In this document: positions 12,494-19,062 of the stretch, piece after piece
Layout: each line of letters begins with the position of its first letter
Position numbering within the stretch: position 1 is the first letter of the stretch
NCBI GenBank assembly: GCA_019636285.1
Contig: JAHBXV010000004.1
Span: 124,001-188,000, forward strand
Direction: 5' to 3'
DNA length: 64,000 bases
DNA from: Planctomycetaceae bacterium
GTDB taxonomy: Bacteria > Planctomycetota > Planctomycetia > Planctomycetales > Planctomycetaceae
Program-made: the position numbers and the translations under genes
The notes under the pieces: generated by a model
Database searches by the model: none
What the model was told of the DNA's origin: nothing
Seen by the model: the letters and a program-made list of their open reading frames with translations, nothing else

Positions 12494-13624
12494 CTATTGG
12501 GCCGATGATCGCGACCCATTGGGAGATCCGGAGATCGGTACGCCGGTGGGAAGCGGGCGGCCGGCAACCAGAAACCCATGTTCGTGGGCGAATTTCTGCA
12601 ACTCGCGAAATGTCTCGAAGCTGTCGGGATAGACCCAGAACGTGAGGACGCCGCCGGGCCTTCCGCGAGAGAGAGACTGCTGAAATCGCGAACCGGCGCT
12701 CAGCGCCTGGTCAACGGTCTCCGCGGGGAGATCGTGCTGTGGCTTCAAGGTCCATTCCGTGACGGCAATGCGGAAGACGCTTGTGCCGTACCGCAGCTCG
12801 TCGAGGACGCTGGTTCCCTGCCGTTCGAGGGTGTACTCCATGACGTACCCCTCGATGGGGCCGACCGTACCAACGTATCGGGAGGTCTTGAGGACCGTGT
12901 CGCGCCGCCGCTCGACCTGACCCCTGAGGCGATCAATGAGCGGTTCGAGGGGGATGACCGAGACGCGTTGATTGGAGACCCGAAAGTGATGCTCTACCCC
13001 TTCGACCATTTTGCCGATGGGGGTCACGCGGTGTTCCAGTGACTTCGCCGACGGCGAGGTGGCTTCCACCTGCCGTACCATTCGGGACATTTCGATCAAC
13101 TGGCGGCGGAGAGCTTCCAGTTCCTCCGCTTCGGCCGATTGCCGATCGCGGCGTTCGGTCAGCAATGTCTCCTGTTCGCGCAGAAGCTGTCGCTTCCGCT
13201 CGATGGCTTCGCGCAGTTCAGCGGATTTCTCGCGGGCGGCAATCAGTTGCTGTTCCACCCGCTGGCGCTGAGCCCGCAGTCGGGCGAGTTCTTCATCGAG
13301 TGTCTCTGCCTCGTTCGACAGCGCAGCCGGGACGGCGAGCGGCGGCAATGGAAGCGGAGCGGGCGGTGGTTCAACCGGCTCGTCCGCGAATGCCAATGGC
13401 GGATAGTAGTCCGGGTCGGGGGCCGCGCTCGGAATCTCGGGTTCGGAAATGATCGGAGCCGGTCGAGGGGCTTCCTCGACCTCGGTCTTCGCGATCAGCG
13501 GCCCGGTTTTGACGCGCACTCCGACGATCACGATCAAGATGATCAGAATACCGACCATGTTGGCGATAACGTCGAGAAACGAGTCGGCGGAGAGTTCCTC
13601 TCCCTTGTTGTTGCGGCGACTCAT
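12494..13624 (-). CDS. ExbD/TolR-like stator partner 2 (carries the TM aspartate)
   Basis: 376 residues. A short cytoplasmic N-terminus is followed by one TM helix (about 15-36) reading SFLDVIANMVGILIILIVIV. D18 falls where ExbD, TolR and MotB have the proton-binding Asp. After the membrane come a Pro-rich linker (45-100), a long coiled coil (about 101-190, Glu/Arg/Gln-rich) and an alpha/beta module (about 210-355) including VLTFWVYPDS and AHEHGFLVAGRPL. The ATG at 13624 overlaps the stop of the upstream gene by four bases, so translation is coupled. No OmpA-like peptidoglycan-binding domain is seen. It is the last gene of the set ExbB-like, partner 1, partner 2. I infer a proton-driven stator that applies force to an unknown periplasmic target. 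Confidence 0.75.
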   Translation of the reverse strand: MSRRNNKGEELSADSFLDVIANMVGILIILIVIVGVRVKTGPLIAKTEVEEAPRPAPIISEPEIPSAAPDPDYYPPLAFADEPVEPPPAPLPLPPLAVPAALSNEAETLDEELARLRAQRQRVEQQLIAAREKSAELREAIERKRQLLREQETLLTERRDRQSAEAEELEALRRQLIEMSRMVRQVEATSPSAKSLEHRVTPIGKMVEGVEHHFRVSNQRVSVIPLEPLIDRLRGQVERRRDTVLKTSRYVGTVGPIEGYVMEYTLERQGTSVLDELRYGTSVFRIAVTEWTLKPQHDLPAETVDQALSAGSRFQQSLSRGRPGGVLTFWVYPDSFETFRELQKFAHEHGFLVAGRPLPTGVPISGSPNGSRSSAQ

Positions 13625-15597
13625 GGCAGGCTCCCCGACGTCTGCGCGGCCGGTTCCAGAGTAAACGTCCGGGTCGTGGTCAGACCGGAGCGTACCGCCA
13701 GCGGCTGAAGACGTTCAAAGTGCTGGTTGCCGCCCGGACTAACGTGGAAGTTCAGAGACGGCCTCCAGAAGAATCCATTGGGCGGCGCGCCCCAGCTTCG
13801 CGTTTCGGCTTCCACTTCAGACAGGATCGCCGCGAATGCGTCGCTGGCCGATTCCCCCTGCCCCACGGGAAGGATCCGGTCAGTGCCGACGATGATCTTC
13901 TCGGCATCGACCCGCACGTTGATGCCCTGTTCGAGGCCGATGATGGCGTTTTGCGGCGAGTTCCCCCACTTGCGATTGCGCAGGTTCTCGAGCGGAATCG
14001 CGGCGGCCGACGACGATGAAGGTTGCCCCTCGTCGAGTCCCAGGGATCGATCGGTAATGGTCGGCCGATTCTGTGGAAGACGAGGAAGTCCCGGCCCCAG
14101 GGGAGTCGGACGCGGAAAACGCGACGGGTCGTCTGGCTTCCGTGGGGATTGCTGAGTCGGAACCTCTTCGACCGAAACGTCCGGCGCGCTCGAGGGAGAT
14201 GGCATATTGCTGACAGTCGCCCCTTCGGGGATCGGGCGTGGTGGACGGAGGCGTTCCGAAGACGCACTACCGGCCGATCCCGATGGCTGTTCCCACTGAA
14301 CCGGCGGTGAAGACGTGGAGGCCGTCGAGCCCTGGCGCGATGGCGGCGAATTTTCGAAGCGATCGATCTTTTCCCAGCTTCGTCCAGTTCGGCCGCCCCG
14401 CTCGTCGAGACCGACGCTCTTCAGGTCAAAACGGTTGTTGGTACCGGCACTGCCTCCACCGCCGCCACTGCCAGCGCCGCCGTTACCGCCGCCGTTGCCC
14501 GCTGCTGGTGTCGCGCCATTCGCGGCCGATCGCAACGTGGCGACGACGTTGGAACGATGCGCGAGTGCTCGCTCGACCGCTTCGCGGCAGGCTGTCTGGG
14601 CAGCCGGGTCGGCCGTCGGGTAACCCAGATTGATCGAGTCGTCCACCAGTTCGTAACCATGGGCGTTGCGCAGGGTGCCGAGGTATTGCATCGCGAGATA
14701 GTAGGCCACCGTGCCGCTGGGGCGAACGACGATCAGCACATAGGGTTCGGGCGGTTCTTCGCCGGGAGTCGTGGGCTGGGACTGCCAGTGACGGATCAGG
14801 GCCACCGCGCCGGCCAGAATGGGATTGTAGGTGTCGGTAAAGCCCTTGAGGTCTTCCGGGGTCAGTCGGACATTCTCGGGCTGGAAGATGATCGCTTCGT
14901 CGGTGCATTCAATGATGATGGGTCGCCGCGTCGTGCCGGACTGGGGATCGAAGGCGACCAGGCTGAACTGGCTGGAGGACTGCTGATTGCGTTCCGCTGC
15001 CGTCGTGAGACGCTCGCGCAAAGCCTCGAGTTGAGACTCGATCAGCTTTCGGTCGGCCCGGCTCTTCGAAGCCGGCGGTCCGTCGGACAGGCTCGACGAC
15101 GATGTGTCGAGCTGACTATCGATCTGTTGTAGTTGACCTCGGAGCTCGCTGGCATCCTTGGCCGCGCTCTCGGCCAGCAGGCGGTGTTGCTCAACCAGTC
15201 TTTGGTCGCGGTCGCGTGCCTGCCGCAATTCGCGAACGCGTCCCTCCCAGTCTTGCAGGAGTTTGGCGATCTGGTGTTCGCGTTCGGCTCGCTCTTCGGG
15301 CGTGGGACCGGCCGGCAGAGAGGGCTTGGCAACAATCTCTTCGGGAGGCGGAGGAAGCGGAATCGGCTCCGCAATGACGGTCGGCACGCGCTGCGGAGGA
15401 ACCTGTTCGGATTCCCGCGACTCGGGCAACGGACTGGCCGGAGCAGGACCGGGACGCGCGACCATTTCCTGTTCGCGGCGAATGCGATCGGTCGTTGCCA
15501 GCAGCAGAAAGATGAGCGATCCCATCGTGCATAGCAGCACGGCGAGAAAGGGAAACAGCGTGACCGGGTTGCCGGCCGAGGAGCGTCGTTTCGCCAT
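13621..15597 (-). CDS. ExbD-like stator partner 1 (TM aspartate replaced by Ala)
   Basis: 658 residues. The N-terminus has one TM helix (14-35) reading LFPFLAVLLCTMGSLIFLLL, which aligns with that of its neighbour (F-L-x-V then a conserved Gly) but has A19 where the neighbour has D18. A Pro-rich linker (47-97), coiled coil (100-205), an alpha/beta module (about 224-320, with PYVLIVVRPSG and NAHGYELVDD), a Gly/Ser/Pro-rich disordered linker (about 355-540) and a second, similar module (about 550-648, with LNFHVSPGG and VRSGLTTTRTF) follow. Its start is about 200 bases after the stop of the ExbB-like gene. It is a paralogue of the next gene and probably its partner in one complex. No enzyme motif is present. 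Confidence 0.7.
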   Translation of the reverse strand: MAKRRSSAGNPVTLFPFLAVLLCTMGSLIFLLLATTDRIRREQEMVARPGPAPASPLPESRESEQVPPQRVPTVIAEPIPLPPPPEEIVAKPSLPAGPTPEERAEREHQIAKLLQDWEGRVRELRQARDRDQRLVEQHRLLAESAAKDASELRGQLQQIDSQLDTSSSSLSDGPPASKSRADRKLIESQLEALRERLTTAAERNQQSSSQFSLVAFDPQSGTTRRPIIIECTDEAIIFQPENVRLTPEDLKGFTDTYNPILAGAVALIRHWQSQPTTPGEEPPEPYVLIVVRPSGTVAYYLAMQYLGTLRNAHGYELVDDSINLGYPTADPAAQTACREAVERALAHRSNVVATLRSAANGATPAAGNGGGNGGAGSGGGGGSAGTNNRFDLKSVGLDERGGRTGRSWEKIDRFENSPPSRQGSTASTSSPPVQWEQPSGSAGSASSERLRPPRPIPEGATVSNMPSPSSAPDVSVEEVPTQQSPRKPDDPSRFPRPTPLGPGLPRLPQNRPTITDRSLGLDEGQPSSSSAAAIPLENLRNRKWGNSPQNAIIGLEQGINVRVDAEKIIVGTDRILPVGQGESASDAFAAILSEVEAETRSWGAPPNGFFWRPSLNFHVSPGGNQHFERLQPLAVRSGLTTTRTFTLEPAAQTSGSLP

Positions 15598-15800
15598 GCT
15601 GATTGGAACGAACTACCAGGTAGTGCTGACACAAGCTCCGTGCCGTGAGACCTTTGCGTATCTATTGGCACGCTTCGGACGGACACGATCGGTTGTGTTC
15701 GAGGTTCTAAAAGTTGCTTCAAGATCCCCGGGACATCTCACGCAAACGCCGCATTGCCGCGATCAAACCCGCCTCGGGAATTTGTGACGTCCAACACGGG

Positions 15801-17225
15801 TCAAGCGGCCTTGTTTCGAGTCTTCGACGAAAGAACGCTGACGGCCGCGTTCAGGCTCAGCAGCGTTTCTTCGAGGGTGTCGACCGCGCGAACGGCTTGC
15901 AGGTTTTCGGCCAGGCGTTCCTCAAGCCGGATGAGTTGACCTTCCTGCTCGGCGAGTTTCAGGAGCTGACCGGTCTGGTCGTGCAACTGCGCGGCGGAAT
16001 CCTGCAGAACGGTTTCGAGACGGGCGACGTCGGTCAGCCAGTTTCGCGTGGCTTCGGTCATGGATTCGATGACCTCGCTCGACCGCGTGGACAGTTCTTC
16101 GTGCTGTGTCTGCTGGCGATTCGAGAGCTCATTGAGCGCGACGGCGACCGTTCCGCCCGCTTCCCGCAGCTGTTCCGCGAGTTCGGCTCCGGTCTCGCGG
16201 ACCGTGGCGGCGAAGTCGCGCCGGGCTGTTTCAATCATCTCGGCGTTGGCCTTGAGAGCCTGGGTGAGGCTCTCTTTCAGCGACGACTCAAGCGTGTCCT
16301 GCTGTCGCGAGAGGGCGCCGGTCCAGCGGTCGCGCAGTTGTTCCAGCGATTGTCGCCACAAGTCGGTCTGGCGACCGACCATGGATTCGGTCTCGCCAAG
16401 CAGATGCGCCGCCGCGGCGGCTTCGGCGGCAAGCAACGGGCTTCCGATAGAAGCCGAACCGGACGAGGTGGGGAAAATCGTGAGGAGCCGACGAATCCCG
16501 TAATCCTCGGTCTCGTCGAGAATGGCCTGCTCGGCCCGTTCGGTAATATAGGTGGCAAAAACGACAATCATCGACAACGCCAGGGCGAGGGCCGTGGTGT
16601 CAAAGGCGACCGCCAAACCTCCCGTGACCTGATTCAGCGACGACTCAAGCTGATCGGGCGTGATGTTGGCAATCGCCATCGTGATGCCGATGACGGTTCC
16701 GAGAAATCCAAGAATGGGGATGGCCCAGGTGATCGTTCGTATGAGGGCATAGCTGTCGGACAGGCGAGTCGCGGCCATTTCCGCCAGATAGCTCAGATGT
16801 CCTTCGAGGCCATCCGATGAACGCCGCCCCGAGACGAACTGGCACAAGTCATCGATTCGGCGTACGAGCTGCGTTTGTCGCGAATGACGGGCCGTCAGCT
16901 TGGCATGCTCCTGAACCCGAGCCGCGACCGATTCGCCCGACAAGCCAGACGATAGGCTCAGTCCGTCAAGCGGGTCGCTTTTCAACACGGACCACTCGCG
17001 GGGCAGCCGCGCGGCCTTGGAAACGAGTGTCGACAGGGCGATGAAGAACAGGCCCGTGCTGGCGTACTCGACCCAGTGCGCATTGAAGTATCGCTGGACC
17101 CAGTCCTGTGAGACTGGCGCGAATGGGAGGATCGCGTAAAAAGCAAGTGTCAGGCAGACTCCGCCCAGCCAGGCACCGGCTCCCGAACCTGACCGCTTCG
17201 TTGCTTCGGACGTGGGGTTTGTCAC
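15801..17225 (-). CDS. MotA/TolQ/ExbB-family proton-channel protein with long helical tail
   Basis: 474 residues. TM helices lie near 20-37 and 55-70, followed by a cytoplasmic helical segment and the family core at 160-230: ILGFLGTVIGITMAI (TM3) and GGLAVAFDTTALALALSMIVV (TM4). T177 and the T210-T211 pair occupy the positions of the conserved channel-lining threonines of ExbB/TolQ. Residues 227-474 form a long, mostly helical tail rich in Glu, Gln, Ala and Arg, much longer than in ExbB (about 240 residues in total) and reminiscent of ZorA. The protein would form a pentamer in the inner membrane and use proton flow through an interface with an ExbD-like partner. The start codon is GTG (17225). 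It heads the three-gene set with the two ExbD-like proteins, with a PP2C gene 283 bases upstream. Confidence 0.85.
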   Translation of the reverse strand: MTNPTSEATKRSGSGAGAWLGGVCLTLAFYAILPFAPVSQDWVQRYFNAHWVEYASTGLFFIALSTLVSKAARLPREWSVLKSDPLDGLSLSSGLSGESVAARVQEHAKLTARHSRQTQLVRRIDDLCQFVSGRRSSDGLEGHLSYLAEMAATRLSDSYALIRTITWAIPILGFLGTVIGITMAIANITPDQLESSLNQVTGGLAVAFDTTALALALSMIVVFATYITERAEQAILDETEDYGIRRLLTIFPTSSGSASIGSPLLAAEAAAAAHLLGETESMVGRQTDLWRQSLEQLRDRWTGALSRQQDTLESSLKESLTQALKANAEMIETARRDFAATVRETGAELAEQLREAGGTVAVALNELSNRQQTQHEELSTRSSEVIESMTEATRNWLTDVARLETVLQDSAAQLHDQTGQLLKLAEQEGQLIRLEERLAENLQAVRAVDTLEETLLSLNAAVSVLSSKTRNKAA

Positions 17226-17508: not shown

Positions 17509-18906
17509 TTACTCGCTGACGGGATCGGCCGAGTCAACGCCGCGCGGCTGGGCCGGGTCGGTACTGCTCGGCGACGTTCCCGATGGACCGGTCGAACGCT
17601 GTGGAGGCTGCTTGCCCCACTTCGCTTCATGCTGCGCTCGGCGCCGCTGTTCAAGCAGGCCGGTCATGAGCAGGTCGAAACTGCGGGCATATTCGGCCAA
17701 GGCCAGCGACAATCGCTTCCTTTCGGCCGCCGACATCGCCTTGCGAAGGTGATCTTCGAGACGTTCCCAGTCGATCCGCCAACCTTCTTCGCGCGCCGCG
17801 CGCTGCAATTCCCCCTCGAGCCGGGCCACTTCTTCGAGGAAGCGGATCTGGAGCTTTGCGGGGGCCGTGCGATACGGTCGCCACACGACCGTCGACAGGG
17901 GATCAAACGACGAAGCTCGCACCGGGCCATCGCTGCGTCTGCGGATGGTCACGAACAGCGTTGCGATCCAGAGGAGCGCGCTCAGAATCATAATGGCTGA
18001 GCCTTGGATGATCTGCCCGCGCACCGCGGCCGCGTAGAGCCCGGACAGGAGAGCGATCGCCAGGGTGGCCGAAATCACGAATGGTCCCCAGCCGCCAGAA
18101 ACGGCACGCATGGCCACGCTGGGCTGATCGAGCGAGGCACCGTCTGGAATCGCACCAACCTTCACGACGATGGCCGTGATGTTGTCGGGGCCGCCCCGAA
18201 GATTGGCAAGGTGGACCATCAGACGGCAGGCGTCGGCCGGCGGCAGTTCGCCGGCAATCATGCCGATTTCGGGATCGGACAGCTGATTGGACAGACCGTC
18301 CGAACACAGGACGAAGACGTCCCCGGGGAATACCGGCGAGGGGCCTTCGAGATCGACCTGAACGGTCGGTTCCGGACCCAGCGAGCGGGTGATGACATTT
18401 CGCGGAAACAACCGGTCGGCGTCGCGCGGGTGAACCTTCCGACGCTGGATCAATTCCCAGACCAGGCTGTGATCGGCCGTGAGCTGATCGATGCGTTTGT
18501 CGCGTATGCGGTAGATTCGGCTGTCGCCGACGTGACTGATGCTGGCACCGTGCGGGCCGAGCACGAGAGCCGAACAGGTGGTTCCCATGCGTAGAAATTC
18601 GGGGTTTCGCAGCCCGCGATCGTGAATCACCTCGTTGGCGCTCTCGACGGCGGCGCGCAACGCTTCATGCACGGGCAGATCGCGGCGTTTGTCGAAGGCG
18701 TGTGGAATGGTGTCAACGGCCAGTTTGCTGGCCAGTTCGCCCACCGCATGTCCGCCCATTCCATCAGCGACGACAAACAGGTTGCCGCGCTCCTGCCAGG
18801 TTTCGACGTCACCGGCGAGTTTGACGGCGAGCGAGTCCTGATTGTTCTGCCGACGGAAACCGACGTCGGTCAATGCGGCGTACTGGATCGGCTGTTGCCA
18901 GTACAT
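17509..18906 (-). CDS. PP2C-family serine/threonine phosphatase, membrane-anchored
   Basis: 465 residues. The N-terminal 260 residues are a complete PP2C domain with metal-binding acids: TDVG (D14), NNQD (D24), VADGMGGH (D48), HVGDSRIYR, LCSDGLSNQL and GGPDNITAI. Two hydrophobic helices follow (about 285-308 and 315-335), then a charged helical cytoplasmic tail (about 360-440) and a Pro/Ser-rich end. It should remove phosphate from Ser/Thr residues at the inner face of the membrane. I preferred the ATG at 18906, twelve residues before the TDVG motif; a GTG at 18954 would add 16 residues of atypical sequence. It lies upstream of the proton-channel cluster in the same direction with a 283-base gap, so co-regulation is possible but not shown. 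Confidence 0.88.
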   Translation of the reverse strand: MYWQQPIQYAALTDVGFRRQNNQDSLAVKLAGDVETWQERGNLFVVADGMGGHAVGELASKLAVDTIPHAFDKRRDLPVHEALRAAVESANEVIHDRGLRNPEFLRMGTTCSALVLGPHGASISHVGDSRIYRIRDKRIDQLTADHSLVWELIQRRKVHPRDADRLFPRNVITRSLGPEPTVQVDLEGPSPVFPGDVFVLCSDGLSNQLSDPEIGMIAGELPPADACRLMVHLANLRGGPDNITAIVVKVGAIPDGASLDQPSVAMRAVSGGWGPFVISATLAIALLSGLYAAAVRGQIIQGSAIMILSALLWIATLFVTIRRRSDGPVRASSFDPLSTVVWRPYRTAPAKLQIRFLEEVARLEGELQRAAREEGWRIDWERLEDHLRKAMSAAERKRLSLALAEYARSFDLLMTGLLEQRRRAQHEAKWGKQPPQRSTGPSGTSPSSTDPAQPRGVDSADPVSE

Positions 18907-19062
18907 GACGACGAGGTGCTTCCGAACGAGAGCGCGACGAAAGAAAGGCGGCACGGGTTACCGCGACACATTCCGGAATTCTAGCGTCCGGACGCCGAAA
19001 ACACCCCAACCAGAGGGTGAGATCATGAGAACGACGGGAATTGCCCGCATGCAAACCGTTTA

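Follow-up and report, generated by a model that had tools for sequence, protein, structure and literature searches.

An operon of three genes, here called P1, P2 and P3, lies in a 64,000-nucleotide stretch of Planctomycetaceae bacterium DNA (contig JAHBXV010000004.1 of assembly GCA_019636285.1, positions 124,001 to 188,000; hereafter the window) and probably encodes an envelope motor of the MotA/TolQ/ExbB type. P1 is the channel subunit, and P2 and P3 are two unlike partners, only one of which carries an aspartate (Asp) in its membrane helix. Our reading is of a motor driven by the proton motive force (PMF), assembled from P1, P2 and P3 in a 5:1:1 ratio and with one Asp in its axle; we give it a probability of about 0.55, and it is the stoichiometry, rotation and task that we infer. 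The preliminary description of this DNA, made from the sequence and its open reading frames (ORFs), had reported a channel gene followed by two overlapping partner genes, with alignable membrane helices bearing Asp in one and alanine in the other. These observations stand. All three genes are on the minus strand, the order given being that of transcription, the Ala gene precedes the Asp gene, and the overlap consists of the four bases ATGA shared by P2 and P3; by ORF coordinates the gap between P1 and P2 is 203 bases. The assignment of P1 comes from a Pfam match to PF01618, MotA_ExbB, which scores 49.9 bits (E=3.3e-13) where the cut-off is 22.9.

Homologous membrane helices and the proposed axle site

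Comparison of the N-terminal segments alone as profile hidden Markov models (first 48 and 46 residues) aligned the two partner helices with a probability of 95.9% (E=5.2e-9). The alignment is ungapped over 43 residues and sets Ala19 of P2 opposite Asp18 of P3, both residues read from their codons. Eleven control comparisons, with reversed segments and the four P1 membrane segments, reached at most 3.7% probability. Strong motifs are retained in the helices of P2 and P3 alike. Across the 90 loci in which both helices were read, P3 carries Asp without exception (90/90), and the P2 site is Ala in 74, Asp in 12 and threonine (Thr) in 4. The Asp/non-Asp split is conserved among the orthologues on the P3 side and in the 78 P2s that lack Asp, and breaks down in the other 12; frequent Asp in the second partner, which the preliminary description had named as telling against its own proposal, is therefore found in part.

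All loci were found through P3, so that a P2 without P3 may be missed. Relatives of P3 were detected in 52 of the 59 genomes searched and, at E<=1e-8, in 39 of 292 genomes sampled from the phylum with six candidates scored per genome. Of these 39, 25 belong to the same family and 11 to the same class, and the remaining 3 scored weakly. Scanning public genomes with a pattern returned at least 590 stretches and at least 438 relatives, from which the best 80 were taken. Proteins count as distinct where their last 150 residues differ, and close relatives stay in the counts. Among 106 distinct P2s, 15 are unread (5 of family f2, described below, and 10 whose helix lies beyond the available sequence, all at or near a contig end) and the serine-bearing paralogue L061 was set aside, leaving the 90 loci counted. 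The 113 distinct P3s comprise 102 read as Asp and 11 unread: 7 of family f2, L064 (weak and unrelated), L090 and L136 (both cut) and L112, whose frame is broken yet whose helix shows Asp in a six-frame reading.

The codons of the P2 site indicate how close the acid lies. All 74 Ala codons are of the form GCN (33 GCC, 3 GCT, 26 GCG and 12 GCA), and all 12 Asp codons are GAC. A single base change turns GCC or GCT into an Asp codon, and GCA or GCG into a glutamate (Glu) codon. With 36 codons a single step from Asp and 38 a single step from Glu, an acid is within easy reach and yet seldom retained. On the trees the Asp-bearing P2s are nested among those with Ala, and Ala is scattered across deep branches; the Asp state amounts to three changes when the tree is built from P3 and P1 and to six when it is built from P3 alone, with no root inferred for either. 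Most Asp-bearing P2s are paired with a different type of channel. An order in which Ala came first and Asp was regained may be read from these sequences, at the strength that trees without inferred roots allow.

Adjacency of two partner genes does not by itself account for the lost Asp. A six-frame search with PF02472 (ExbD/TolR) recovered seven canonical ExbDs in the source genome, none of them within this operon; six occur as three adjacent pairs, and all seven have the Asp. Profiles of the canonical helices match P2 and P3 weakly (E 0.001 and 0.01, with two of the seven rows misframed) and place their Asp on Ala19 and Asp18. In Pfam searches P2 matched no family at E<=1, and P3 gave no useful match.

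Matched stalks of the two partners

The best evidence for a mixed P2/P3 axle is the agreement in stalk length between the two proteins. Stalk length was counted in residues from the Ala/Asp site up to where the head domain begins, located with head-domain profiles for each protein separately, and could be obtained at 88 of the 90 loci. Stalks range from 145 to 287 residues in P2 and from 142 to 287 in P3, and their lengths are correlated both in raw form (Spearman 0.78, Pearson 0.85) and as phylogenetic contrasts (r=0.85, rank 0.73), a correlation matched by none of 10000 sets of shuffled contrasts. It persists without the six longest stalks (contrasts r=0.71), without 13 extremes (0.67) and within the Ala-type loci alone (0.84, 72 loci). 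Control contrasts are -0.006 (P2) and -0.050 (P3) for stalk against the length of the P1 tail (74 loci) and 0.04 and 0.15 for the stalks against the rest of P2 (88 loci); the raw control Spearman coefficients are 0.30, 0.10, 0.12 and 0.31. Family f2 was left out of this comparison (n=5), with the start of one of its P3 helices, in L046, falling at residue 10 or 39 depending on threshold. Matched stalks are expected if P2 and P3 stand side by side and rise from one membrane to an equal height, and a shared target at one height could also produce them. The match lies in the linkers, whose lengths correlate between P2 and P3 (0.68), rather than in the coils.

Channel type, family f2 and alternative readings

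The channel has conserved columns at P170, G173, G176, T177 and T211. Threonines in the last two membrane segments of MotA/TolQ/ExbB channels line the pore; here Thr177 and Thr211 are each present in 81 of 82 readable P1 rows, the single departures being Ser at 177 and Val at 211. Residue 209, two positions before Thr211, varies with the state of P2. It is Asp in 63 of 66 readable channels of Ala-type loci (2 Gly, 1 Asn) and in 4/4 of Thr-type loci, and asparagine (Asn) in 11 of 12 channels of Asp-type loci, the same 11 in which residue 180 changes from Gly to His. The pairing of P2 Asp with P1 Asn209 fits 78 of 80 loci, unlinked channels included, the exceptions being L141 and L071, whose channel, L199, is unlinked. 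Of the independent pairs that the P3 tree allows, 4 are concordant, 0 opposite and 1 tied (p=0.125, the best attainable with five pairs), so the link between the P2 residue and channel type is suggestive.

A second three-gene motor family in the same class of bacteria (L061, L175, L176 and L177) has a channel that shares the membrane core of P1 and, in at least L175, an N-terminal zinc-ribbon-like stretch. It pairs a Ser-type partner (FPFLSVxACxIG) with an Asp-type partner (SLLDTMxNVVG) and so repeats the Asp/non-Asp split in a different form. At the site equivalent to Asp209 these Ser-type systems have Asn in L175 and L061 and Asp in L176 and L177, and follow no strict pairing. A further pair of adjacent, overlapping partner genes in L185 (938-1810 and 1801-2337), near a large channel protein, has Asp in both helices (STSFLDLLSCGMG and STSFLDLLSCGLG). 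This locus belongs to family f3, in which the present operon was absent from 6/6 genomes searched.

Seven genomes of family f2 retain heads of the P2 and P3 types, adjacent in six and interrupted by a contig end in the seventh. No P1 stands beside these heads in any of the 7 loci, and a six-frame scan found the helix motifs of P2 and P3 in 0/7 (best score 0.2; five control loci scored 30 to 52). The P1 profile reaches E=2e-42 at best in f2 genomes, mostly 1e-20 to 1e-32, compared with 1e-93 or better for true P1 in the operon-bearing genomes of the same search, and the commonest f2 channel forms its own clade outside P1, on a long branch. If P1 was lost in f2, both helices decayed alike, Ala as much as Asp, which fits a service of both to the channel. 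The f2 homologues of P2 (L046, L049, L053, L054 and L055) have Glu near the helix start in 5/5 readable cases, the usual motif being gone. The family's own channel, in the part of these genomes in which its partner was read, is followed by a single partner with the helix EDSFVAVVVTKLTGALLFIL (L183:3170-3934, L188:3446-4168, L193:5454-6206), which contains Lys and no Asp and, in L183, is accompanied by an Ig-like domain; an acid-free motor partner would be odd.

In the motor that we propose, the ring would consist of five P1 subunits and the axle of one P2 with one P3. Asp18 of P3 would be the sole proton-binding residue of the axle, with the P2 helix taking the other position in the axle and offering no proton site. 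If the ring keeps its fivefold symmetry, a single Asp would turn the motor in about five steps of 72 degrees; in the usual scheme an axle with two Asps takes ten steps of 36 degrees. In both partners the proline-rich linker and helical stalk would lead up to ExbD-like heads, the two proteins lying side by side, and the extra head of P2, on a flexible linker of about 165 residues, could contact a cell-wall or outer-membrane partner. The more specific version, a rotary motor with an asymmetric axle, a single proton site and 72-degree steps, which in evolution switches by one residue to a two-Asp form when the channel type changes, is put forward tentatively, at slightly under even odds. The heterodimeric, asymmetric axle of the preliminary description is partly supported: the co-evolving stalk lengths fit its mixed composition, and the 12 P2s with Asp speak against its strict single-site form.

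Several observations weigh against our reading. The Asp-bearing P2s mean that the single-Asp state is not obligatory and that a two-Asp version of the motor exists. Among mid-range stalks alone the raw Spearman coefficient falls to 0.49 (66 loci). Coil lengths, measured crudely as the proline-free run at the 49 loci that strict patterns allowed to be read, are uncorrelated between P2 and P3 (Spearman 0.05), which speaks against a simple zipped coil of the two. Neither partner matches PF02472 at E<=1. The conserved Asp209 of P1 lies in a membrane segment, and the ring may hold additional acid sites. Finally, f2 still contains a distant channel that has its own partner, so P1 may not have been lost there and may instead have diverged far.

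It is rather unlikely that P1 pentamers hold P3 homodimers with two Asps, as in an ordinary 5:2 motor, and that P2 is an accessory transducer outside the ring. P2 resembles TonB and TolA in outline, being longer and containing a proline-rich stretch, a linker that is long and flexible, and an additional domain at its C terminus, and it lacks the Asp in 78/90 loci. However, its helix is homologous to that of P3 and in register with it, its stalk matches that of P3, and in 12 loci, mostly with an altered channel, an Asp appears at exactly the position of Ala19. TonB and TolA bind through a Ser-His-Leu-Ser motif (PMC12204202, of which, as of the other papers cited here, excerpts are the source), but none of the 90 P2 helix segments contains a His, and a transducer of this type was rejected on that ground. 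Separate homodimers of P2 and P3 that compete for the P1 ring, the P2 form being inactive or plugged and tuning the motor, are improbable. A P2-P2 axle would be without an axle proton site in 78/90 loci, but the matched stalks would be unexpected unless both homodimers reach the same target, and the twelve P2s with Asp fit poorly.

The working acid might instead be carried by the ring, Asp209 of P1 substituting for the missing Asp of P2 and the axle Asp being structural. The distribution of residue 209 given above, with its four concordant pairs to none, speaks for this idea; against it stand exceptions in both directions (L141, and L071/L199), Ser-type paralogues with either Asn or Asp, and the fact that the P3 Asp is the most constant residue of all, and we hold it to be very improbable. 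Slighter still is the chance that there is no motor and that the complex is a proton or ion leak, or a signalling channel with envelope-anchoring partners: the channel conserves Thr177 and Thr211 and the partner its Asp, as in PMF-driven motors.

Operon features and known systems

Coordinates of the operon and of the modelled parts of its products are collected in Table 1.

Table 1. Genes, codons and modelled segments of the operon (positions in the window).
Feature	Position	Strand	Basis or remark
P1, MotA/TolQ/ExbB-type channel subunit, 474 aa	15801..17225	-	PF01618; helical tail of ~240 residues beyond last membrane segment
P1 residues 155-235, core membrane segments GFLGTVIGIT...GLAVAFDTTALAL	16521..16763	-	conserved columns
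P1 Asp209 codon	16599-16601	-	within AFDTT
P2, putative Ala-type axle partner, 658 aa	13621..15597	-	translation, start MAKRRSSAGNPVTLFPFLAVLLCTMGSLIFLLL; orthologues in same operon
P2 membrane helix, residues 15-47	15457..15555	-	AlphaFold2; Ala19 codon 15541-15543
P2 stalk helices, residues 100-207	14977..15300	-	modelled helices 100-172 and 177-207
P2 head domain 1, residues 209-360	14518..14973	-	modelled alpha/beta domain
P2 linker, residues 366-530	14008..14502	-	pLDDT <50 all along; probably disordered
P2 head domain 2, residues 536-650	13648..13992	-	modelled
ATGA, P2 stop/P3 start overlap	13621..13624	-	sequence
P3, putative Asp-type axle partner, 376 aa	12494..13624	-	translation, start MSRRNNKGEELSADSFLDVIANMVGILIIL
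P3 membrane helix, residues 13-40	13505..13588	-	model; Asp18 codon 13571-13573
P3 stalk helix, residues 100-188	13061..13327	-	one high-confidence modelled helix
P3 head domain, residues 200-376	12497..13027	-	model

AlphaFold2 modelled P3 with a mean predicted local distance difference test score (pLDDT) of 83.6 and a predicted template modelling score (pTM) of 0.50, as helices 13-40 and 100-188 and a head at 200-376. The P2 model (mean pLDDT 71.2, pTM 0.48) has two heads joined by a low-confidence linker. The best ExbD/TolR-type match of P2 head 1 was TolR 5by4 (Z 6.1, root-mean-square deviation (rmsd) 5.5, 87 aligned of 105), tied with unrelated folds; unrelated folds also tie with the matches of P2 head 2 to ExbD 8p9r_A (Z 6.5, rmsd 2.9, 71 aligned of 74) and of the P3 head to ExbD 8p9r_B (Z 5.0, rmsd 2.6, 70 aligned of 73). 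The modelled heads are thus compatible with an ExbD/TolR fold, and these matches are not decisive. Foldseek returned no match at E<=0.001 for the models of P2 and P3, and a search for solved structures related by sequence gave nothing useful for P1 or P3.

A P1 orthologue adjoins P2 and P3 in 82 of the 90 loci (67 Ala, 11 Asp and 4 Thr). The order P1-P2-P3 is found in 67/74 Ala loci and 4/4 Thr loci; among the 12 Asp loci the order is P2-P3-P1 in nine and P1-P2-P3 in two, and one has no P1 nearby. For the 8 loci without a neighbouring P1, a full-length P1 relative was present elsewhere in the genome in both of two searched. No gene is constant beside the operon across 97 loci. The commonest neighbour is a divergent gene upstream of P1 on the opposite strand (33/97), absent from the window; in L045:1-1808 it encodes 602 aa and matches no Pfam family at E<=0.05. 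In the window the gene directly upstream of P1, in the same orientation, encodes a PP2C-type protein phosphatase (17509-18954; PF13672, E=6.4e-16), which is outside the set of frequent operon neighbours.

Like ExbBD, TolQR, MotAB and GldLM, which are 5:2 motors, the operon combines a channel of this family with a partner that has a single N-terminal membrane helix bearing Asp, followed by a periplasmic part. Those motors contain two identical partners, with Asp in both for ExbD, TolR and MotB (PMC9389320), whereas the partners here are unlike. Closer in layout is the AglR/AglQ/AglS gliding system of Myxococcus xanthus, with one MotA/TolQ-like channel and two different TolR/ExbD-like partners in one cluster (PMC9389320, PMC3169522); whether AglQ and AglS form homo- or heterodimers was unknown in 2022 (PMC9389320). 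AglQ and AglS each have the Asp and PF02472, in contrast to the present system, with Asp in one partner only in 78/90 loci and no PF02472. In 2025 heterologous pairs of TolR-like proteins were described in the PVC group, as were heterologous vWA pairs (PMC12204202). These too are heterologous partners beside a TolQ-like gene, and the helices of the vWA pairs are predicted inside the pentamer. Unlike P2 and P3, the vWA helices each keep the Asp, and the clusters with these heterologous pairs hold vWA or TPR genes; a Pfam search found no vWA domain in P2 or P3. The excerpts of PMC12204202 are silent about the Asp in the TolR-like pair of the PVC group, and a word search of the excerpts of a 2025 MotAB survey (PMC12505986) found nothing on aspartates. 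The long helical tail of P1 recalls ZorA of Zorya, to which P1 shows weak similarity (25.4 bits, where the cut-off is 100; PADLOC E=8.4e-9). Zorya ZorA/ZorB was rejected as an identity: P1 falls far below every ZorA cut-off, and no ZorB model is among the matches listed for P2 and P3.

Given the heterologous pairs already published (PMC9389320, PMC12204202), the phrase "a new kind of stator", used in the preliminary description, was too strong. Pairs as such are known; what is new here is the missing Asp in one partner of a heterologous pair, and no report of an Asp-less partner was found in the open-licence full-text literature, the scope of the search (subscription papers and preprints lie outside it).

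To our knowledge, all detailed models of 5:2 motors assume two identical axle helices that alternate in ion binding. If our reading is true, nature has supplied a single-site motor whose close relatives have two sites, and comparing them could reveal what sets step size, torque and the number of ions per turn, and whether alternation between two axle sites is needed at all. It would also be a lead towards the many unnamed envelope motors of planctomycetes.

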